Part shown: positions 2,059-33,312 of the stretch, piece after piece | Numbering within the stretch: position 1 is the first letter of the stretch | Layout: every line of letters starts with the position of its first letter | Source: Sediminispirochaeta bajacaliforniensis DSM 16054 | GTDB taxonomy: Bacteria; Spirochaetota; Spirochaetia; DSM-16054; Sediminispirochaetaceae | Assembly (NCBI RefSeq): GCF_000378205.1 | Contig: NZ_KB899416.1 | Span: 1 to 46,749 of the forward strand | Direction of reading: 5' to 3' | DNA: 46,749 bases | Translations under genes and position numbers: made by a program | The notes under the pieces: generated by a model | Told to the model about the DNA's origin: nothing | The model's database searches: none | What the model saw: the letters and a program-made list of their open reading frames with translations, nothing else

Positions 2059-2082
2059 TGCAGGAGGATGTAGTTCTTTCCC

Positions 2083-2238
2083 GCGGCAGGGATTGGAGCG
2101 GAAACCCTGGAGCCCCGCGGGGACGAGGAGGGCGATCGGGAGTGAGCCCGTGCCCGAGTCCCGGAAACGCGGGGCGAAGCGTTGGAGCGCAAAGCCCGGC
2201 CCCGCGCAGCGGGGAGCCGCCCCGAAAAAAAACGAAGC
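2083..2238 (+). repeat. GC-rich intergenic element, copy A
   Basis: This is a non-coding, very GC-rich block between the SH3 protein and hcp. It contains the stretches 'TTCCCGCGGCAGGG', 'GGAGCGGAAACCC', 'GGAGTGAGCCCG' and several short complementary G/C runs, for example CCCCGCGGGG near 2113. Open frames across it encode only Arg/Gly/Pro-rich junk. A second block of the same character (43280-43432) shares the opening 'GTTCTT(T)CCCG' and the core 'GGAGCGGAA', then 'GAGCCC(G)'. I read both as members of a dispersed intergenic repeat family. The relationship was judged by eye. Confidence 0.45.
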
Positions 2239-2248
2239 GGCTTATCTA

Positions 2249-2268
2249 CTGTTTCGAATCCTGGTGGT
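2249..2268 (+). repeat. Short dispersed motif, copy 1 (TTCGAATCCTGGTGGT)
   Basis: This is one of four intergenic copies of a motif with consensus TGTTCCGAATCCTGGTGG. It lies directly after the GC-rich block and reads GTTTCGAATCCTGGTGGT, differing at one base from the consensus core. The other copies are at 10721-10742 (minus), 25046-25070 and 33203-33230. Its role is unknown. Confidence 0.5.
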
Positions 2269-2337
2269 CGAATGACCGCAACTCCTTTTTCAGAAGTCAA
2301 TTGAGAACACTATTATGGAAGAAAGCAGGCACCGGCT

Positions 2338-3954
2338 TTAGGTTTCCCCCATAATGGCTGGAAGGTCGGACTGGACATCTGCAATCGGTTTTATGTCGAA
2401 GTTTTCCACCAGTATGTTTGCGACATTCGGGCTTAGAAAGGCGGGAAGCGTCGGCCCCAGGCGTATGCCTTTGAAACCGAGGTAAAGCAGTCCGAGTAAA
2501 ACGGCTACGGCCTTCTGTTCGTACCAGGCAAGATCAAAGCTGATGGGAAGCTGGTTGAGGTCCTCCAGCCCGAAGACTTCTTTCAGCTTCAGTGCGATGA
2601 TTGCAAGGCTGTAAGAGTCGTTGCACTGGCCTGCGTCCAGGACCCGGGGGATGCCGCCGATATCTCCAAGATTCAGTTTCAGGTAGCGGTATTTTGCACA
2701 GCCGGCCGTGAGGATAACGGCGTTGTCGGGAAGGGCCTCGGCCAGTTCGGTAAAGTATGATCTGCCCTTTTGCCGTCCGTCGCAGCCAGCCATGACCACA
2801 AAGCGGCCTATGGCCCCGCTTTTGACTGCGTCGACGATCTTATCGGCCAGCGCAAGGGTTTGGGCATGGGCAAAGCCGCCGGTGATGCTTCCTGTTTCCA
2901 GTTCTGTTGGAGGGGGACAGCTTCGGGCCTGTTCTATGATGGAGGAGAAGTCTTTCCTCCCTCCATTTTCTCTGTCGGGGATGTGGCGGACGCCCGGGTA
3001 GCCTGCCATCCCTGTTGTGTAGATGCGATCTTTATAGCTTTCTTTGACCGGGACGATGCAGTTTGTGGTCATCAGAATAGGGCCGTTGAAGGATTCGAAT
3101 TCCTTATTTTGATGCCACCAGCTGCCGCCGTAGTTGCCTGCAAAGTGTGCGTATGCCCGAAAGGCTGGATAGTAGTGTGCGGGCAGCATTTCACTGTGGG
3201 TATAGATGTCGACGCCGCTGCCTTCGCTTTGCTGCAACAGCTCTTCCAGGTCTTTCAGGTCGTGGCCGGATATGAGGATACCGGGATTGTTCCGTACCCC
3301 GATATCGACCTGGGTGATCTCCGGATTTCCATAGGCCGAGGTATTTGCTTTGTCCAGAAGTTCCATCGCCTTGACCGCTGTTTTACCGGTTGCCATGACA
3401 AGGTCGATAAGCTTTTCCGGGTTCCGTTCTGCGGCGAGATCTGCAAGTAGGGAGATAATCGTGTGATAGTGTTCTGTATCTTCCACTCCGAGAACAGCCG
3501 CGTGGTCGGTATAGGCCGCGATTCCCTTGAGGCCGTAGATTGCCAGTTCCCGGAGGGACCGTACATCCTCATTCTCTTCTTCGAGGATACCGGATCCGGG
3601 ATGGGGCATATCGGCAGCATAACGCGCACAAGCTGGGGCCTTTGTAAACGTGGCATCGTCAAGGCCTTTCTGTAATTTCTCCAGCCTTCCGCAGCTTTCT
3701 TCGAGCAGGACAGATATCCTGTTGTCGTCGAAATTGGCGTTGGTGATGGTGGCAAAAAGCGAGCGTACCGTAAAGAGTCCGAGATCGGGCTGAAGCTTTT
3801 CCCATTGGCCGAGTTTTTTCGCACACCATGCGCAGCCTTTTAGCGAATAGATGAGAAGGTCCTGAAGATCGGCCGTCGATCCCTGCTTTCCGCAAACGCC
3901 GCGAACCGTACATCCCTTGTTCCCTGCGGTTTCCTGGCATTGAAAACAAAACAT
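2338..3954 (-). CDS. hcp: Hydroxylamine reductase / hybrid cluster protein
   Basis: This is hybrid cluster protein (538 aa). In vitro it reduces hydroxylamine to ammonia, and in vivo it is linked to NO detoxification and S-nitrosylation in anaerobes. The N-terminal cluster motif is C3-x2-C6-x8-C15-x5-C21 ('[15 protein letters not shown]...GVCG'), the class I form of strict anaerobes. Hybrid-cluster ligands are recognisable in '[13 protein letters not shown]' (His), '[13 protein letters not shown]' (Glu), 'LMTTNCIVP', '[10 protein letters not shown]', '[19 protein letters not shown]' and '[10 protein letters not shown]' (Cys). The open frame extends upstream to 4173, but I chose the ATG at 3954. 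It begins the conserved MFCFQC, has GGAGG 8 nt ahead, and leaves room for the divergent promoter. It is divergent from a CRP/FNR-family regulator, the classical HcpR arrangement. No hcr reductase gene is adjacent. Confidence 0.96.
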
Positions 3955-10695: not shown

Positions 10696-10720
10696 AATGG
10701 TGGTATAGAGGTGTATTTTC

Positions 10721-10742
10721 ATCACCAGGATTCGGAACACTA
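10721..10742 (-). repeat. Short dispersed motif, copy 2
   Basis: On the minus strand this reads TAGTGTTCCGAATCCTGGTG, matching the copy at 25046-25070 over 17 bases (TGTTCCGAATCCTGGTG). It includes the last bases of the amidohydrolase gene, supplying its TAG stop. Confidence 0.55.
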
Positions 10743-11942
10743 CCCCCTAATTACCACACCTCCGTGAATCACCGTTCGCCTGCTTTTCCCGCCGATGAGA
10801 GCCTCAACCGGATTGGGAGCATCTACGATTACCATATCGGCTCTACACCCCTGCTTTAGTCCATAATTCGTTATACCCATTGCCCAAGCCGGGGTTTCGG
10901 TGATCATTGCCAGCAGATCCTGGCTGCGGCTGTAGGGGTCAAGCTGGGCCACCTGAGCGGTGAGGAGCAACTCTTCAAGGGGATCTCCGTTGCCGAAGGG
11001 GCGAAAAGGGTCTCTGATGTTATCCGAGGCTACCGCCACCGGCACCCCCGCTTCAATGAGTTCTGTGATTCTGGTCGTACCCCGACGGCGATTCTTGGTA
11101 TCGCTGCGTCCCATGAGAAAAAGATTGCAGGAGGGCAGTGTTACCACATTGACGCCGGAGCTGGCAACCTTTTCGATCACTCGTGCCGCTGCATCCGCAT
11201 CCATTGCCGAAAGAGAGGTACAGTGGCCCGCCGTCACACGGCCGCCCATCCCGTATTCCATGGTTTTCTCGGCAAGATAGTCGAGGGCATCGGCATTTGC
11301 TTCCTCGCTTTCGTCCACATGCAGGTCGATAGGAAGGCCGCTTGTCTCCGCAAGACGAAAGAGTGTGTCGGTAAGCTCCCGATGATTGTTACTCAAGGTG
11401 GGACAGCCGCCGATCGCATCGGCTCCTGCTTCTATGGCTTTTTCCAATAGCTCATATACGGCATCTCCGGGAACAATCTTTTCTACGGCTCCGGGGAAGG
11501 CGACCAATTGAATCGTAATCTCATCCTTATAGTGTTCGCGTATCCTGCAGGCGCTTTCCCAGAGCTTCATGCCGGTGAAACGTTCAAGGGTAATATGGCT
11601 TCTCAGTATCGAGGTCCCGGCTTCGATCGCCATTTCAACCATGTTACAGCCGTTTTCATATAACTCCTCTTCATCGACGTTCCTGAAGTAGGCGTTCATA
11701 CTTTTAATCGCTTCTAATAGGGTGCCTGAGTAATTATGGATGCGACCGGCGGTCATTGCTTTATCAAGATGGGTGTGCATGTCGACAAAGCCGGGGAAAA
11801 CGGTTTTTCCTGAAGCATCAATAATCTTTCGGCCGGCTCCTGTGATGCGGGCAGCCTTTTCCGCAATGAATCCCTCCTTGATGCCAAGATCCATTGTTCC
11901 GTTTCCGTGAATATTACCCTGCTTGATTACTAAATCATACAT
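10740..11942 (-). CDS. Cytosine-deaminase-like metal-dependent amidohydrolase
   Basis: This is a 400-aa amidohydrolase-superfamily enzyme closest in pattern to cytosine deaminase (CodA), which hydrolyses cytosine to uracil and ammonia. Metal ligands are visible as HxH in 'GFVDMHTHLDKA', His in 'IDLHVDESEEANAD', His in 'GRVTAGHCTSLSAM' and the catalytic Asp in 'VAVASDNIRDPFRPFGNGD'. The 'LMGRSDTKNRRRGTTRI' segment parallels CodA 'LQGRFDTYPKRRGITRV'. I chose the ATG at 11942, with AAGGA 6 nt upstream, over an ATG at 11978. It is divergent, over a 75-bp gap, from a nucleoside-type ABC importer and near xanthine-dehydrogenase genes, so a role in nucleobase or related N-heterocycle salvage is likely. 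Other ring amides are possible substrates. Confidence 0.82.
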   Translation of the reverse strand: MYDLVIKQGNIHGNGTMDLGIKEGFIAEKAARITGAGRKIIDASGKTVFPGFVDMHTHLDKAMTAGRIHNYSGTLLEAIKSMNAYFRNVDEEELYENGCNMVEMAIEAGTSILRSHITLERFTGMKLWESACRIREHYKDEITIQLVAFPGAVEKIVPGDAVYELLEKAIEAGADAIGGCPTLSNNHRELTDTLFRLAETSGLPIDLHVDESEEANADALDYLAEKTMEYGMGGRVTAGHCTSLSAMDADAAARVIEKVASSGVNVVTLPSCNLFLMGRSDTKNRRRGTTRITELIEAGVPVAVASDNIRDPFRPFGNGDPLEELLLTAQVAQLDPYSRSQDLLAMITETPAWAMGITNYGLKQGCRADMVIVDAPNPVEALIGGKSRRTVIHGGVVIRG

Positions 11943-11959
11943 ATGAATCCTTAATCTTC

Positions 11960-11988
11960 TTGATGATTTCGAAAACATATAGTAATAT
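11960..11988 (+). promoter_or_regulatory. Sigma-70-type promoter of the BMP transporter operon
   Basis: TTGATG (11960-11965), a 17-bp spacer and TAATAT (11983-11988) lie 29 bp before the binding-protein start, which is preceded by AAGGAGG. The box lies in the 75-bp divergent gap shared with the amidohydrolase gene. Confidence 0.6.
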
Positions 11989-19617: not shown

Positions 19618-22364
19618 TTGGTGAAACGATTCACTTCCGGGTCAACGGCATTGAGCGGGAGGTGAATCCGAAACAGGGAATGAGCCTGATGCGTTATCTC
19701 CGTGAAGAGCTGGGGCTGACGGGTACAAAGTGCGGATGTCAGAGTGGTGACTGCGGCACATGCAAGGTGCTCGTGGATGGTCGGGCGGTCAATTCGTGCA
19801 CCCTTGCTCTGCGGAAACTCGAAGGCCGGGAAGTCGTTACCATCGAGGGGCTTGCCCCCGATGCCACCCGTCCGGGAAGTACCCTTCATCCCGTCCAGCA
19901 GGCCTTTATCGATGCGGGGGCCATACAATGCGGTTTCTGTACGCCGGGGATGATTATCACCACGGTGGCCCTTCTGTCCCGTAACCCCGACCCTTCTTCT
20001 GGTGAAATACGCAAAGCCCTCGATGGAAACCTGTGTCGCTGCACCGGATATCGAAAGATTGTCGATGCTGTTTTACTGGCCGCGCGGTATATGCGTGGCG
20101 GAGCACAAAACACTGAAGAAGGAGGAAGGCCGGCAGGTTCTAACACCATTGCCCTCGGAACTCCTTCTCCGGTTCGGGACGCTCGGAAAAAGGTAACCGG
20201 TCGTCTTTTGTATACCGGTGATCTCAATTTCCCCGGCATGCTGATCGGAAAAATCCTCTATGCACCGGCCGCCCACGGCCTGATTACCTCTATCGATACC
20301 AGCCGGGCAGAGGCCCTTCCCGGCGTCCGGGCTGTGGCGAGCTTTGCGAACAGTCCTGATAAGCCCTATAACAGCCATACCACCCTGCCGTTTCAGAAGG
20401 TTCCCAAAAATGAGCGCATATTCAACCGTCACTTTCGCTTTCATGGCGACAGGATCGCGGCAGTTGCCGCCGAAGATGAGGCAACTGCTCGTAAGGCCCT
20501 CGGCCTTATCGAGATTGAATGGGAACCATATCCCGCAAGTCTCACGATAGAGGATGCTCTTGCTCCTGGTGCCGAACCCATCCATGAGGGCGGAAACCTC
20601 GCCGATACCATACGTGAGGAAGGGGGAACTCCATCCCCAAAGCGGGGAGAACGGTACGAAGGTGTCTTTCGGCTGCCGAGGGTGACCCATGCCGCACTGG
20701 AACGGCACATCTCCATCTCCGATTTCGACGGCGAACGGCTTACCGTCTATTCTTCCTGCCAGAACGTCTTTTGTTACCGGGCCATGCTCGGCGAACTCTT
20801 CGAGCTGCCTCTCAATCGGGTCAGGGTTATCAAACCTGCGGTCGGAGGCGCCTTCGGGGGAAAGTCCGAGATGGTGAGTGAGCCGGTTTCCTCCCTCCTT
20901 GCTCTTATGACCGGAAGACCGGTAAAAGTGGAGCTCTCACGGAAAGAGGTTATGTGTTCAACCAGGACCAGGACCTCCGGACGAATCGAGCTTTCCATGG
21001 AAGTGGACGAGGACAACCGTTTTATATCCCACAATTATCATGCCTATCTGGATCGCGGCGCCTATTTCGGCAGTGCCTACGACCTCGGCTATGCCCTGAT
21101 GGATAAGGCCTTTCGGCTCTATCGCGTACCCAGGATCGATACCTCCGCCGCTCTCGTTTATACCAACAATCAGGCTGCCGGGGCCGTAAGAGGATATGGT
21201 AATCCCCAGATAAGCTTTGCCCGGGAGGTGCTGATCGACCGCATCTGCCGGCAAAGGGGGATCGATCCCATCGAATTCCGGATAAAAAACCTGGTCCATC
21301 CCTGGGACCGAAACCCGGCAAACGGATACTCTCTGGGCAACTGCCGGATCATCGAGTGTCTTGAACTGGGGGCCAGACTCTGCGGCTGGGAAGAAAAGCG
21401 AAAGAGATCGGATTCAGGAACCATTCGCCGGGGAATCGGCCTGGCATGCGGGGTTCACGGCTCGGGGATACACCCGGGATCGGTGGATTACTCGACGGCA
21501 GGGCTGAAGATGAATGGCGACGGAACAGCCTGCCTCTCCATTTCTGCCCATGAAAACGGTCAGGGCAGTAGCGTGGTCATGGCAAAGATCGCCGCCGAGG
21601 TCCTCGGCATTCCCGAGACCTCCATCAGTCTGGTAGAGACCGATACCGAGACCACCTGGTACGACAACGGAAGCTATGCAAGCCGGGAGACCTGGGTCTG
21701 CGGCGGTGCGGTGAAGCGGGCCGCGGAATCGGTGAAGCGGCAGCTGACCGAAGAGGCTGCTGTTATGCTTGGCTGCACGGTGGGGGAGGTTGTCGCTCAG
21801 GCGGGATGCTGCAGAAAGCGGACAGGGGGACCCGATGCTCTACTTAGCTATGGAGATATCATTACCTATGCCCGTTCTCACTACCCCTATCATGATATCA
21901 ATGCGGTGGAAAGTTACGCCTCGCCCATGGACCCCGGCTCCTATTTTGTCAACTTCGCCGAGGTCGAGGTCGATATGGAAAAGCGGACGATCAAGGTTCT
22001 CAAGGTAACCGTTGTTCACGACTGCGGCACCATCATCAACCCAATGCTTATCGAAGGACAGGTAGACGGCGGTATGCATATGGGACTCGGTTATGCCCTC
22101 TGCGAAGAGCTTCTGAGCGACCGGCAGTCGGGAAAACAGCTGACGACAAGTTTCAAGCAGTATAAGATGATTCCTCCGGAGGCTATGCCGGAGGTTGAAC
22201 TTCGGTTTCTCGGAGGAAAGGAGCCGCTTGGGCCTTTCGGCGCCAAGGGAATCGGAGAAGCCACCACTGTTGCTATTGCACCTGCGGTGGCTAATGCTGT
22301 TACTTCCGCCACCGGGTTTGAAATATCATCGTTACCGATTCGTTTTCCGGCTCTGATAAAATGA
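19605..22364 (+). CDS. Fused 2Fe-2S / molybdopterin xanthine dehydrogenase-type protein
   Basis: This is a 919-aa fusion. Residues ~8-165 are the two-cluster iron-sulfur subunit: plant-type 2Fe-2S Cys at 43, 45 (outside the canonical set), 50, 53 and 65 in 'TKCGCQSGDCGTCKVLVDG', and the all-helical 2Fe-2S domain with C109, C112, C144 and C146 ('QCGFCTPGMIITT', 'LCRCTGYRKIV'). From ~180 a full Mo-binding subunit follows, with 'AVGGAFGGKSEMVSEP', 'GAVRGYGNPQISFARE' and the catalytic Glu ~885 in 'GAKGIGEATT'. Such FeS-Mo fusions occur in selenium-dependent xanthine dehydrogenases and some aldehyde/purine hydroxylases. There is no FAD subunit gene in the window, so the electron acceptor is unclear. 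It is followed by a strong terminator. Confidence 0.88.
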   Translation: MSGLIGETIHFRVNGIEREVNPKQGMSLMRYLREELGLTGTKCGCQSGDCGTCKVLVDGRAVNSCTLALRKLEGREVVTIEGLAPDATRPGSTLHPVQQAFIDAGAIQCGFCTPGMIITTVALLSRNPDPSSGEIRKALDGNLCRCTGYRKIVDAVLLAARYMRGGAQNTEEGGRPAGSNTIALGTPSPVRDARKKVTGRLLYTGDLNFPGMLIGKILYAPAAHGLITSIDTSRAEALPGVRAVASFANSPDKPYNSHTTLPFQKVPKNERIFNRHFRFHGDRIAAVAAEDEATARKALGLIEIEWEPYPASLTIEDALAPGAEPIHEGGNLADTIREEGGTPSPKRGERYEGVFRLPRVTHAALERHISISDFDGERLTVYSSCQNVFCYRAMLGELFELPLNRVRVIKPAVGGAFGGKSEMVSEPVSSLLALMTGRPVKVELSRKEVMCSTRTRTSGRIELSMEVDEDNRFISHNYHAYLDRGAYFGSAYDLGYALMDKAFRLYRVPRIDTSAALVYTNNQAAGAVRGYGNPQISFAREVLIDRICRQRGIDPIEFRIKNLVHPWDRNPANGYSLGNCRIIECLELGARLCGWEEKRKRSDSGTIRRGIGLACGVHGSGIHPGSVDYSTAGLKMNGDGTACLSISAHENGQGSSVVMAKIAAEVLGIPETSISLVETDTETTWYDNGSYASRETWVCGGAVKRAAESVKRQLTEEAAVMLGCTVGEVVAQAGCCRKRTGGPDALLSYGDIITYARSHYPYHDINAVESYASPMDPGSYFVNFAEVEVDMEKRTIKVLKVTVVHDCGTIINPMLIEGQVDGGMHMGLGYALCEELLSDRQSGKQLTTSFKQYKMIPPEAMPEVELRFLGGKEPLGPFGAKGIGEATTVAIAPAVANAVTSATGFEISSLPIRFPALIK

Positions 22365-22402
22365 AAACATGGTTATTCCAATAGAAATGGTAACCATGTT
22401 TT
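22364..22402. terminator. Bidirectional terminator after the molybdenum hydroxylase operon
   Basis: A perfect 12-bp inverted repeat AAAACATGGTTA / TAACCATGTTTT with a 15-nt loop starts at the last base of the stop codon. The A-run and T-run ends let it work on both strands. It closes the purine block and may also serve the convergent GntP gene. Confidence 0.75.
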
Positions 22403-22470
22403 GAAGCATACTCATGCGAAGATGACTGAGAAGGAAAACGGGCATTCCCCCTGAAACGTACAAAAGCCAG

Positions 22471-23820
22471 TTATGCCATCGGCAGCACTAAGGATCCCAC
22501 GATGACAATGCATAGAGTCAAAACAGATACTAATGCGCTACCGAGTGTGTAGGTTTTTAGCCCCCCGGTCACCGTTAGTCCTGCCAAGTTTGTCGTCACC
22601 CAGAAGCCACTGTCATTTACATGACCGATACTGATTCCTCCTGCCAAGGAGGCCAATGCGATCCATACAGGATGAATGGCAATGCTCGGCGCAACCGAAG
22701 CCATTAAGGTCATGGTTGTGATTGAAGCTACGGTACCGGACCCTTGTGCAATACGGAATATCATGGCAATACAATAACTTAACAGGATTACGATCAATCC
22801 GGCGTTGGCAGTGTGGCTAATATGTTCCACCAGGAGTGATCCTATTTGTGTTGCCTTGATGACATTACCAAAACTACCGCCGGCACCGGTAATCAACAAA
22901 ACAATTCCGGCTGCTTTGGTTGCCTCTGCTGCAGATTTGTTCATCTCATCCTTCGCCATCGATTTTGATGCTACAATGTAGGCAAAAATCACGCCAAGGA
23001 GTAGAGCGACAATCTTATTACTTATAAATGCCAAGAAACTGGGGAGTTCTCCTGTTATCGCTTTTGTTACCGTACCGCTAAGGATTAATACAATAGGTAA
23101 TATGATTGGGATGATTGAAAGACTAAATGAGGGTGCGTTTTCCCGTTCTGCTTTTCCCTTGTCGAGGTTAAATAGTTCGCTCTCGTCATTATTACTCTTC
23201 CAAAGTCCTTTATCCAGAAGCTTAAAATAGATTTTCATGGCGATAAAAACTACTATCAAGCCTATGGTTCCACCAAAAAGTACCATGATTCCCAGATCGA
23301 AGTTGAATATGCTGGCGGCTGCCAGTGGGTTAGGGGTGGGGGGAACCAAGGTATGTGCAGTTGCTGCTCCGATTACCATGGCTCCGATGATGTACGGAAA
23401 GGGCTTTTTTGTTTCTTGCACCAAGGCAAGGCCAAGTGGAATAAGAATAACAAAGGTCACATCGTAGAATACCGGTATGGAGAGCAGAAAAGCGGTGAAG
23501 CCTATTGCATAAACAGCATTTTTTTCTGATGTTGCTTTTACCAAAGTAGTAGCAATTACCTTGGCTCCGCCCGAGTCTGAAAGTAATTGGCCTAAAATCA
23601 CTCCAAAACCAATCGATAAACCGATTCCTGCCATGAGACCCCCAAAACCGGAGCCAATTTGGTTGACTGTTTCGGCTAATCCGAGTCCGGAAGCTATGCC
23701 CATATACAAGGCTCCGACAATTAAACTAATAGCAGGGTTCAGTTTTAACTTCAGGATCAATAGTAAGATTACAGCTATTGCAATAGCTAAATTTATCACC
23801 AACATAGTGGAAGATACCAT
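22471..23820 (-). CDS. GntP-family (gluconate:H+ symporter-like) permease
   Basis: This is a 449-aa membrane permease of the GntP family, importing gluconate or related hydroxy-acids such as D-glycerate with protons. It has about twelve to fourteen hydrophobic segments. Family patterns include 'LKLNPAISLIVGALYMGI', 'GFGVILGQLLSDSGGAKVIA', 'SIPVFYDVTFVILIPL', 'AATAHTLVPPTPNPLAAA', 'AQGSGTVASITTM' and 'HVNDSGFWVTTNLAGLT'. The start at 23820 is preceded by AAGGAG. It lies downstream of the reductoisomerase-like gene on the same strand, so the substrate may be a branched or 2-keto-related hydroxy acid rather than gluconate itself. Confidence 0.92.
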   Translation of the reverse strand: MVSSTMLVINLAIAIAVILLLILKLKLNPAISLIVGALYMGIASGLGLAETVNQIGSGFGGLMAGIGLSIGFGVILGQLLSDSGGAKVIATTLVKATSEKNAVYAIGFTAFLLSIPVFYDVTFVILIPLGLALVQETKKPFPYIIGAMVIGAATAHTLVPPTPNPLAAASIFNFDLGIMVLFGGTIGLIVVFIAMKIYFKLLDKGLWKSNNDESELFNLDKGKAERENAPSFSLSIIPIILPIVLILSGTVTKAITGELPSFLAFISNKIVALLLGVIFAYIVASKSMAKDEMNKSAAEATKAAGIVLLITGAGGSFGNVIKATQIGSLLVEHISHTANAGLIVILLSYCIAMIFRIAQGSGTVASITTMTLMASVAPSIAIHPVWIALASLAGGISIGHVNDSGFWVTTNLAGLTVTGGLKTYTLGSALVSVLTLCIVIVGSLVLPMA

Positions 23821-23901
23821 TGAATTTCTCCTTAAATTCGTCTTTACAGATCGAGATCGGAGGCTATGCCCATTACATGCGTGACTATTCGTGCCTCAAG
23901 G

Positions 23902-23941
23902 GTATCGACTATCTTTCGGTGTGGCCGTGGATAGTCGATAC
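23902..23941 (-). other. Intercistronic stem-loop between reductoisomerase-like gene and gntP-type gene
   Basis: GTATCGACTATC / GATAGTCGATAC is a perfect 12-bp stem with a 16-nt loop (itself with CGG/CCG). It lies 11 bp past the reductoisomerase-like stop (minus strand) and 81 bp before the permease start. There is no U-run, so it is more likely an RNA-stability or processing element than a terminator. Confidence 0.6.
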
Positions 23942-23952
23942 AGCCATGTTTT

Positions 23953-24936
23953 CTATTCTAATCTTTCTTTTACTCGCTCCTCGGCCTTACTCATTTCATT
24001 GTTGAACGCGGCATTACGTAGCTCTTCGAATTTCACAAGTCCGCTTTTTTGCTCTTTTTCCCATTCCGTTGCAAACATGCCTGAGGTTATTTTTTCATAC
24101 TGAGAAACAATAAATTTTTGTATGAACGACTTGTCGGTTTTTGCAAATCCGGTTAATTGTCCGAACTGGCTGGTATGAGAATGAAACGGAAGTTGCTTGA
24201 AAAGCCCGATGTCCGCCGCTTTCTCCATCATAACCGCGGGCTCTTTTGAGAGGTACATTTCCATCAGGACAGCTTCTTCTGGATGCCCCATTTCCACCTG
24301 GTACTTATACACTTCAGTAAAAACAGCATAGATCAGCGGCCATGTGGCTTGTTCCGCCATAAGATCAAGATAGGTTTCGTCGTTAAAGGTGACTTGGATC
24401 GCTCCCTTTTTGGTTGAGCCGATTGCTTTGGCCAGAGCCAAAGTAATATCCCAGGCCGAACCTGAAGAATCTTGTTGCACGGCGACAAAAGTGGGAAACC
24501 CTTCTCCGCTTTGATAGAGCTCTCTTACTCCACGTCCGATCATCCTCGGTGCCACCATGATAACATCGACTTCATCCGAAGGCTGAATATGCTTGAATGT
24601 AATATTGTAGCCGGAAGAAAAGTTGATAACGTCACCCTTTTTTAGATGAGGTGCTATCTTTTCTTCGTAAATTTGCGGTGCAACTTCATCGGGAATCAAC
24701 AGGAACAGAATGTCCGCTTTAGCAGCTGCCTCATCAATGGAAAAAACAGGAAAACCATCTTTGTTTGCAGTGTTCCAGGATTCATCATTTCTACTGCCTA
24801 CAATAACGTTTTTGATACCGGAATCACGTAAATTCAGCGCTTGCGATCTCCCCTGATTACCATATCCGATAATTGCTATCACTTTCTTTTGTACTAAATC
24901 TACGTTTGCATCTTTGTCGTAAAAAATTTTGGTCAT
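23953..24936 (-). CDS. Divergent ketol-acid reductoisomerase-like protein
   Basis: This is a 327-aa homologue of class I ketol-acid reductoisomerase (IlvC), which normally isomerises and reduces acetohydroxyacids with NAD(P)H and two Mg ions. The Rossmann motif is 'AIIGYGNQGRSQALNLRDSG' with 'VGSRNDESW', and the Mg-ligand region 'LDLMAEQATWPLIYAVF' keeps the Asp...Glu of the canonical 'DLFGEQ'. However, the later active-site segment usually reading 'SNTAEYG' is 'HSHTSQFGQL' here, and the canonical 'CGG' after 'GEQ' is lost. No ilvB, ilvN or ilvD gene is nearby; instead a GntP permease and an FCD regulator flank it. I think it acts on another 2-keto or hydroxy acid. The start at 24936 has AGGAGGAG; an upstream ATG at 24999 overlaps candidate operators. 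Confidence 0.8.
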   Translation of the reverse strand: MTKIFYDKDANVDLVQKKVIAIIGYGNQGRSQALNLRDSGIKNVIVGSRNDESWNTANKDGFPVFSIDEAAAKADILFLLIPDEVAPQIYEEKIAPHLKKGDVINFSSGYNITFKHIQPSDEVDVIMVAPRMIGRGVRELYQSGEGFPTFVAVQQDSSGSAWDITLALAKAIGSTKKGAIQVTFNDETYLDLMAEQATWPLIYAVFTEVYKYQVEMGHPEEAVLMEMYLSKEPAVMMEKAADIGLFKQLPFHSHTSQFGQLTGFAKTDKSFIQKFIVSQYEKITSGMFATEWEKEQKSGLVKFEELRNAAFNNEMSKAEERVKERLE

Positions 24937-24975
24937 GAAACGCTCTCCTCCTATTCGTTGTTTCGTGTTTTGTTG

Positions 24976-25004
24976 ATCAGATATCATAAAATCAGACATC
25001 TGAT
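24976..25004. promoter_or_regulatory. Tandem ATCAGA-N2-TCTGAT-like sites, candidate FCD-regulator operator
   Basis: ATCAGACATCTGAT (24991-25004) is a 6-bp inverted repeat with a 2-bp centre. A related half-conserved copy ATCAGATATCATAA lies at 24976-24989, 15 bp upstream. They sit 40-68 bp before the reductoisomerase-like start on the minus strand, where a repressor of the GntR/FCD class encoded at 25839 could act. Confidence 0.4.
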
Positions 25005-25045
25005 GTAATACTAACAGGGGTTTTATTATAACGCAAGTTTTTTTT

Positions 25046-25070
25046 ACTGTTCCGAATCCTGGTGGTATAC
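25046..25070 (+). repeat. Short dispersed motif, copy 3
   Basis: TGTTCCGAATCCTGGTGGT lies in the divergent intergenic region between the reductoisomerase-like and flavin-reductase-like genes, after a run of T. It matches the minus-strand copy at 10721-10742 over 17 bases. Confidence 0.55.
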
Positions 25071-25229
25071 ATGGCGTTATTTTATGCCAATGCTTGCGTT
25101 TTCATGGTACGCCTTTCGATAGTGGTATCGTGGTTAACTTTTACACCGACATATAGGCAGCTATGACTTTACCTATATGCTGCAAACAATTAATATGACG
25201 TTAATAATAGGACAAAAGGGGGAAATCTT

Positions 25230-25736
25230 TTGCGCTTAGCTGATAGTGTGTTGCAAAATGTACCGCGCATGATGAGCCAGATGAGTGCCGGTGGCCTCTT
25301 TCTTACCACGAAAACGAAGAAATTAAATACGATGGTCATCGGATGGGGAGGAGTTAATGTTTACTTTCGTATCCCAATATTTATCGTGCCTGTTCGATAC
25401 TCTCGATATACGCATGAGCAGATGGAAGAGTCGCAATACTTTACCGTCAGTGTACCACGTGCCGGTTCATTAAAACATGCATTAGCATTTTGCGGATCGA
25501 AGTCGGGAAGGGACTTTGACAAGTTTACAGAGTGCAATTTAACTCCTCTTCCCGGAAGGCTCGTGGATGTTCCGATCGTCGGAGAGTGTCCTTTGCACTA
25601 TGAATGCGAAATTATGTATAAGCAGCACATGGTTCCTGAAAATTTGAACGGAACACTCGATGCAGAGGTCTATCCGGATTCCGATTACCATACATTTTAT
25701 TTTGGAAAGATTCTTTCATGCTATGTGAATGACTGA
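25230..25736 (+). CDS. Flavin-reductase-like FMN-binding protein
   Basis: This is a 168-aa single-domain protein of the FMN-binding split-barrel (flavin reductase-like) family. Recognisable parts are 'GLFLTTKTKKLNTMVIGWG' (the usual 'lvTt...g..N.mti.W' strand), 'PIFIVPVRYSRYTHEQMEES' with 'YFTVSVP', and 'HTFYFGKILSCYV' at the end. It probably binds FMN and acts as an NAD(P)H:flavin oxidoreductase or redox partner. The start is TTG 25230, placed 7 nt after AAAAGGGGGA; no ATG gives the complete N-terminal strand. It lies divergent from the reductoisomerase-like gene and ahead of the FCD regulator. Only a weak GACT/AGTC hairpin with TTTTT follows it (25731-25746). Confidence 0.8.
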   Translation: MRLADSVLQNVPRMMSQMSAGGLFLTTKTKKLNTMVIGWGGVNVYFRIPIFIVPVRYSRYTHEQMEESQYFTVSVPRAGSLKHALAFCGSKSGRDFDKFTECNLTPLPGRLVDVPIVGECPLHYECEIMYKQHMVPENLNGTLDAEVYPDSDYHTFYFGKILSCYVND

Positions 25737-25838
25737 TAGTCTTTTTCGAAAGGTAGTATGCCTGAGTAGCGTAATCCAAAGGTATCATATACAATAAGCG
25801 TTGCAATGATTGATTATTTTCTATAGTAATGGGGCTTT

Positions 25839-26531
25839 ATGGATAGTAATAGTTGGTTATCAAATCCAGTTGAGAAGGGTTCGGTTTCCAGGATTGTTTT
25901 AGAGAGAATTAAAGAAGCATTAATAAATAAACAGTTGCGGCCGGGAGATTTCCTACCGACGGAGAACGAGCTTGCGAAGGGTTTTGGAGTAGGAAAGTCC
26001 AGTATAAGAGAAGCGATTAAAATGCTGGAAGCCATGGGAGTGGTAGAGATCAGGCGGGGCCAGGGAACTGTCATACGCGAACATCCGGATCAACATAATG
26101 TTAATTCATTGGTTTTTCAGTTGCTTCTTCAGGAAGGTGATGTTCAGGAGTTGATAGATCTCCGGGCAATGTTTGAGGTTTCATATACCACAGTGGCCAT
26201 GCATAGGGCCACTGTGGAAGATTTGCAAGCAATTAAGCTGACAATCAACGATTTTGAAGCTAAAATAAAAAAGGGAGAGCATGAACTGGAAGATGACCTT
26301 GCTTTCCATCGTGCAATTTTAGCGAGTACTCATAACGTTTATATCATCAAGATTGGCGAAACGATTTTGCAACTTTTTCGCTCATCAATTCGTAAATCGG
26401 TAGCTCAAACGCCAGAAATCGCTTTAGATGATCATAAAAGGATATTCAAGGCTTTTTGCGAAAAAGATGAAACAGCAATCAAGACGATTATTTATGATAC
26501 ATTAGAGCGATGGCGCGAAAATCTTAGTTAG
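25839..26531 (+). CDS. FadR/GntR-family regulator with FCD domain
   Basis: This is a 230-aa regulator. The N-terminal winged helix is 'LRPGDFLPTENELAKGFGVG' then 'SSIREAIKMLEAMGVVEIRR', followed by a helical FCD ligand domain with candidate metal-site residues in 'DLAFHRAILASTHN' and 'DDHKRIFKAFCEKD'. FCD regulators of this type commonly sense sugar acids or hydroxy acids. Its location beside a GntP permease and a reductoisomerase-like enzyme on the opposite strand makes those genes the likely targets. A short GGGG precedes ATG 25839. A good terminator follows. Confidence 0.87.
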   Translation: MDSNSWLSNPVEKGSVSRIVLERIKEALINKQLRPGDFLPTENELAKGFGVGKSSIREAIKMLEAMGVVEIRRGQGTVIREHPDQHNVNSLVFQLLLQEGDVQELIDLRAMFEVSYTTVAMHRATVEDLQAIKLTINDFEAKIKKGEHELEDDLAFHRAILASTHNVYIIKIGETILQLFRSSIRKSVAQTPEIALDDHKRIFKAFCEKDETAIKTIIYDTLERWRENLS

Positions 26532-26556
26532 AAGCCATTACAAAAGAATGGCTTTT
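26532..26556 (+). terminator. Terminator of the FCD regulator gene
   Basis: AAGCCATT-ACAAAAG-AATGGCTT followed by TT begins directly after the stop codon. The stem is perfect over 8 bp and the T tail is short. Confidence 0.6.
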
Positions 26557-26622
26557 ATCATGGAAACGGTAGAGGATAGAGAGTATGGAGACCGTCACTC
26601 TGAAGTATGATACACTCTAAAA

Positions 26623-33202: not shown

Positions 33203-33230
33203 TAGTGTCCGGAATCGTGGTGGTGATATA
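33203..33230 (+). repeat. Short dispersed motif, copy 4 (diverged)
   Basis: TAGTGTCCGGAATCGTGGTGGT is a variant of the motif at 10721 and 25046, with one base missing and two changed. It lies in the divergent region between the aldo/keto reductase and NSS transporter genes. Confidence 0.4.
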
Positions 33231-33312
33231 TCCTTTTTACCGAGATTACTCCAAATCGGTTGACGGATTGTCTTCAAACATTGGAGAATAGCCACCCGCA
33301 GGAGGATAGTAC

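Follow-up and report, generated by a model that had tools for sequence, protein, structure and literature searches.

Organization of the motif copies in the window

The window, that is, the whole stretch of DNA analyzed here, comprises 46,749 nt of the Sediminispirochaeta bajacaliforniensis DSM 16054 genome. Allowing up to 3 mismatches to TGTTCCGAATCCTGGTGG, we found exactly four matches in it (Table 1); the shuffled window contained 0.04 matches on average, and none of 100 shuffles reached 4. The original prediction had described four near-identical copies at 2249, 10721, 25046, and 33203 and had considered an 18-base match to be far beyond chance. The shuffles agree with the latter point and the four sites are right, but the positions were off by 1 to 3 bases and "near-identical" is too strong for the copy at 33206, with its 3 mismatches. 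All four copies lie between the main open reading frames (ORFs), as had been noted, and the 151-amino-acid antisense ORF (1845-2300) that overlaps the copy at 2250 is spurious. The copies at 25048 and 33206 are located between divergent genes, and the other two are located between convergent genes. The minus-strand copy does run into a stop codon, as first described: its flanking TA plus G (10742-10740) forms the TAG codon of ORF 10740-11978 (minus strand). The unit common to the copies extends beyond the 18 bases to 22 bp, TA[G/C]TGTTCCGAATCCTGGTG[G/A]T.

Table 1. Motif copies in the window and the element remnants to which they belong
Feature	Position	Strand	Evidence
Motif copy	2250-2267	+	1 mismatch
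Motif copy	10722-10739	-	1 mismatch
Motif copy	25048-25065	+	0 mismatches
Motif copy	33206-33223	+	3 mismatches
Decayed half-MITE (profile positions 57-149)	2247..2339	-	nhmmer E = 6e-18 on the window
Solo terminal inverted repeat	10720..10742	-	Exact 17-base core
Decayed MITE end, TA at 25045-25046	25045..25106	+	Exact motif; profile positions 2-82, E = 7e-7
Decayed MITE or insertion-sequence end, TGTCCGGAATCGTGGTG type, TA at 33203-33204	33203..33245	+	Profile positions 1-43, E = 3e-6

The motif bounds a 149-bp element

Many copies of the motif form inward-facing pairs spaced by 125 to 126 bp, and roughly one in two sampled copies belongs to such a pair. The alignment of 27 distinct full-length elements revealed a 149-bp unit with 22-bp inverted repeats, TA at both ends, and an alignable interior. 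As is characteristic of MITEs, these 27 elements are short, lack a coding gene, and are bounded by terminal inverted repeats, and their ends and subterminal DNA are common to an autonomous element present in the genus. A ~149-bp MITE thus has the motif as its terminal inverted repeat, in line with the initial proposal of an end of a larger decayed repeat. The suggestion of a small-RNA target fared less well: in the aligned MITE, the only RNA structure is the pairing of the two terminal repeats, with no pairing in the interior, and neither an Rfam family nor a tRNA was found for the repeat element.

The numerous short copies in intergenic DNA, some of them single and others forming inverted pairs, are reminiscent of REP-like single-stranded repeats, which a RAYT (Y1 tyrosine) transposase disperses. 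However, the motif is non-palindromic and forms no hairpin of its own; the only possible pairing is that of one element end with the other. Moreover, the spacing of the pairs is fixed, TA flanks them, and their ends match an insertion sequence (IS) that encodes a protein with a predicted integrase fold, which makes a REP/RAYT origin scarcely credible.

The MITE profile recovers all four window copies, of which only that at 2247-2339 is a clear half element, the scores of the other three coming mostly from the repeat itself. In the half element, the motif constitutes the right terminal inverted repeat, with the outer TA at 2247-2248, and the orthologous place in S. smaragdinae matched profile positions 21-149. 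The copy at 25045-25106 retains some MITE interior, with a local alignment score of 18 versus 9 outside (95% background, 11), and little or no interior is left in the copies at 10722 and 33206. For the solo repeat at 10720-10742, the profile matched over positions 1-125 at 24 bits, a score that derives mostly from the repeat; the extension of this match down to 10627 is weak and doubtful, and local alignment detected no interior similarity for this copy. S. smaragdinae carries the same repeat at the orthologous place, and its orthologue of the copy at 33203-33245 aligns over positions 1-106 (E = 7e-6).

A G+C-rich intergenic repeat (cccgcggcagggattggag ... gcccgg; window 2078-2225) is immediately next to the half element at 2247. 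For each of the two genomes, the sampled DNA contains single additional copies of this repeat, which also lies beside MITE copies in loci L004 and L017.

An insertion sequence of the same genus has related ends

The first IS that we saw with such ends is a 1.2-kb S. smaragdinae element whose transposase gene is frame-broken. S. smaragdinae contains ten IS copies, nine of 1,224 to 1,233 bp and one of 2.5 kb. Their ends (TGTCCGGAATCGTGGTG or close variants) are related to the MITE ends, and TA is present on both sides in 10/10 copies. The left 79 bp of the IS match the last 79 bp of the MITE (positions 71-149; E = 4e-8), and the right end of the IS matches MITE positions 1-37, a weak match. With both of its ends matching IS ends, the MITE is most readily interpreted as a member of this IS group that has lost part of its interior. 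Judging from these alignments, it looks like a derivative of the ~1.23-kb IS, and it was most likely spread by the IS found in the same spirochete genus. We estimate at about 0.92 the probability that the motif represents the 22-bp terminal inverted repeat of non-autonomous ~149-bp elements, a family that arose as an internally deleted IS derivative.

The MITE family and its parent IS are an ordinary, known kind of element. Like the Correia elements of Neisseria and other bacterial MITEs, the Sediminispirochaeta MITE is a short noncoding unit with terminal inverted repeats and TA flanks that occurs in many intergenic copies, with internally deleted and solo remnants (PMC10969869, PMC2229807), but its sequence and parent IS are different. 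Spirochetes are unmentioned in the 2024 review of bacterial MITEs that is among these two sources.

Of 198 genomes in the class, 42 encode homologues of the IS transposase (380 to 392 amino acids); intact copies are present in both Sediminispirochaeta species, so IS-type transposase genes are also found in S. bajacaliforniensis itself. The protein comprises a zinc ribbon, a helix-turn-helix, and a predicted integrase-like catalytic domain. Its structure model, which is of high confidence (pLDDT 88.6), gave retroviral intasomes and ISCth4 as the best fold matches (E about 3e-4, with low TM-scores). D124 and D214 are invariant in 25 transposase sequences and are candidates for two of the acidic residues of an RNase H-like integrase fold.

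The transposase has no match in Pfam, and none was found in plasmids. It resembles the IS1 family (NCBIfam NF033558) weakly, over the zinc ribbon and helix-turn-helix (29.8 bits, E = 5e-7), and with 29.8 to 32.8 bits at best against a 100-bit cutoff, we rejected membership in this family. IS1 measures about 0.77 kb, uses a frameshift, and generates 8- to 9-bp target duplications, whereas the element described here has a single ORF of 380 to 392 codons in ~1.23 kb and TA flanks. The IS630/Tc1-mariner group is similar with respect to the TA at both ends (10/10 IS copies) and the preference for CTAG but differs in that the present transposase contains a zinc ribbon and lacks both a DDE_3 domain and any Pfam match. 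We discarded IS630 as the parent, as no DDE_3 domain (PF13358) was found in S. bajacaliforniensis, S. smaragdinae, or the genomes G018 and G042. Being absent from Pfam and far below the NCBIfam cutoff, the IS group may be undescribed.

Fragments of the transposase gene occupy many contig ends of the S. bajacaliforniensis assembly (C1, C23, C24, C27, C30, C35, and C36); therefore, IS copies probably caused these assembly breaks. A 1.1-kb S. smaragdinae segment bounded by terminal inverted repeats (L088/G001:C1:1319636-1320760) was rejected as an autonomous copy, since it contains azlC/azlD-like transporter genes and no transposase between two inward-facing MITE-type ends with IS-like spacing. 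It is possibly a transposase-less cassette.

The genome G042, from another spirochete family, has its own MITEs and a transposase gene flanked on both sides by a different but related repeat. In this second genus, too, MITE and IS ends match each other, which favors the same reading of the MITE. The G018 pairs (~102 bp apart) and the 105-bp elements of G042 represent other MITE families, with the related repeats TASTGNTCCGAATCCTGTTG and TASTGNYCCGAATCCTGTGG.

Target site

When the IS sites were rebuilt with a single TA, CTAG was obtained in 6/10 cases. This tetranucleotide is scarce in the sampled DNA (320 occurrences in 1.77 Mb, 0.43% of TA dinucleotides); it is very rare in both genomes, yet it is the favored IS site. 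IS630 has been reported to prefer CTAG (reference cited in PMC2170065). Joining the flanks yielded no clean pre-insertion site, either for the ten IS copies compared with the S. bajacaliforniensis genome or for 59 elements compared with all sampled DNA. The TA duplication is therefore putative; formally, the flanking TA might instead be part of the element itself.

Copy numbers and position of the copies relative to genes

The original prediction had proposed a genome-wide count of the motif, which for the core within two mismatches gave 76 + 69 = 145 copies in the 4.57-Mb S. bajacaliforniensis genome versus 3 + 3 = 6 for the reversed pattern. S. smaragdinae (one contig of 4,653,970 bp) contained 186 copies of the 17-base core. 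Two genomes from another genus of the same family had one core copy each, about the control level, and the 19-base motif had two matches across 85,000 genomes of other species, which is about chance, neither of them with a partner repeat.

Statistics were computed on 0.79 Mb of the S. bajacaliforniensis genome and 0.98 Mb of S. smaragdinae. The predicted intergenic enrichment was present, with 71 of 84 sampled copies outside ORFs, though ORFs cover 91 to 94% of that DNA. In these position counts, genes are ORF calls only and orthologous copies of both genomes are counted twice. The intergenic location, along with the two window copies (25048 and 33206) that lie between divergent genes, would be compatible with an operator bound by a host regulator near promoters, as first envisaged. 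Yet the other two window copies have convergent neighbors, and in the sampled DNA convergent gaps are over-used (23/71 intergenic copies versus 16.6% of intergenic bases) and divergent gaps are under-used (12/71 versus 28.4%), and among 33 repeats with a gene at most 20 bp away on their outer side, 27 adjoin the gene's 3' end. Furthermore, pairs with a fixed spacing, TA flanks, and identity with IS ends are unexpected for an operator, which we consider very improbable. The copies are found where insertion harms least, the opposite of a promoter site.

Because the base that follows TA in the repeat can be G, an insertion at the TA of a stop codon regenerates TAG. Several repeats coincide precisely with a stop codon, including the one at 10740-10742 in the window.

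Most mapped copies are orthologous, and many have probably lost one end

S. smaragdinae has orthologous copies for three of the four in the window and for most others with mappable flanks. The copy at 25048 lies in the window region 22341-26602, which is missing from S. smaragdinae at a place where the two genomes are otherwise collinear. Among 76 TA-flanked ends, 39 lack a partner up to 280 bp away; most of the 39 show no interior similarity, yet their repeat is near-perfect. Because the partner scores are two-peaked, deletion is a likelier cause of solo ends than slow decay. At site 3857980, a full MITE in S. smaragdinae corresponds in S. bajacaliforniensis to a left repeat joined to the right flank, so that a full element in one species is directly seen as a solo end in the other. 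Another orthologous site has a full IS in S. smaragdinae versus a short remnant in S. bajacaliforniensis. Overall, similarity to the MITE is higher in the interiors of solo copies than in their outer flanks (P = 0.0003), but most interiors are no longer recognizable. We also searched for inward-facing partners up to 6 kb away, as halves of large passenger-bearing elements would have, and found no clear excess.

The two-peaked scores and the near-perfect solo repeats common to both species, with unrelated interiors, could also mean that the solo ends, about half of the copies, were kept by selection after the MITE had spread, as domesticated binding sites or gene-end signals. Divergence between the species was 2.3% for repeats, 7.6% for interiors, and 4.6% for outer flanks, in a set of sites chosen by their repeat and hence biased. 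Because of this choice, the low repeat divergence is no proof of selection; once it is allowed for, repeats diverge about half as much as the flanks (4.6%), as neutral change in one lineage would produce. Since, in addition, one solo end corresponds to a complete element in S. smaragdinae, we regard selective retention as unlikely. The four window copies are single, old, decayed element ends and not regulatory sites.

Proposed history of the element and implications

We propose that the transposase binds the ends that, like the subterminal sequence, are observably common to the IS and the MITE, and that it would thus act on the MITE as well. It would excise the element in a cut-and-paste manner and reinsert it at a TA, presumably with duplication of the TA; TA is observed on both sides, and the IS copies favor CTAG. 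Most sampled insertions would be older than the separation of the two Sediminispirochaeta species, whose old copies are orthologous. Many copies would then have lost one end and the interior, presumably by deletion also at solo ends other than that at 3857980. The window copies would be remnants of this kind, which persist because their location between genes, observed for most copies, makes them tolerable.

Together, our results explain a repeat found across the intergenic DNA of Sediminispirochaeta; in sequence analyses, these ends should be masked instead of being taken for regulator sites. They also point to a widespread IS group of spirochetes that combines IS630-like TA/CTAG flanks with another transposase.
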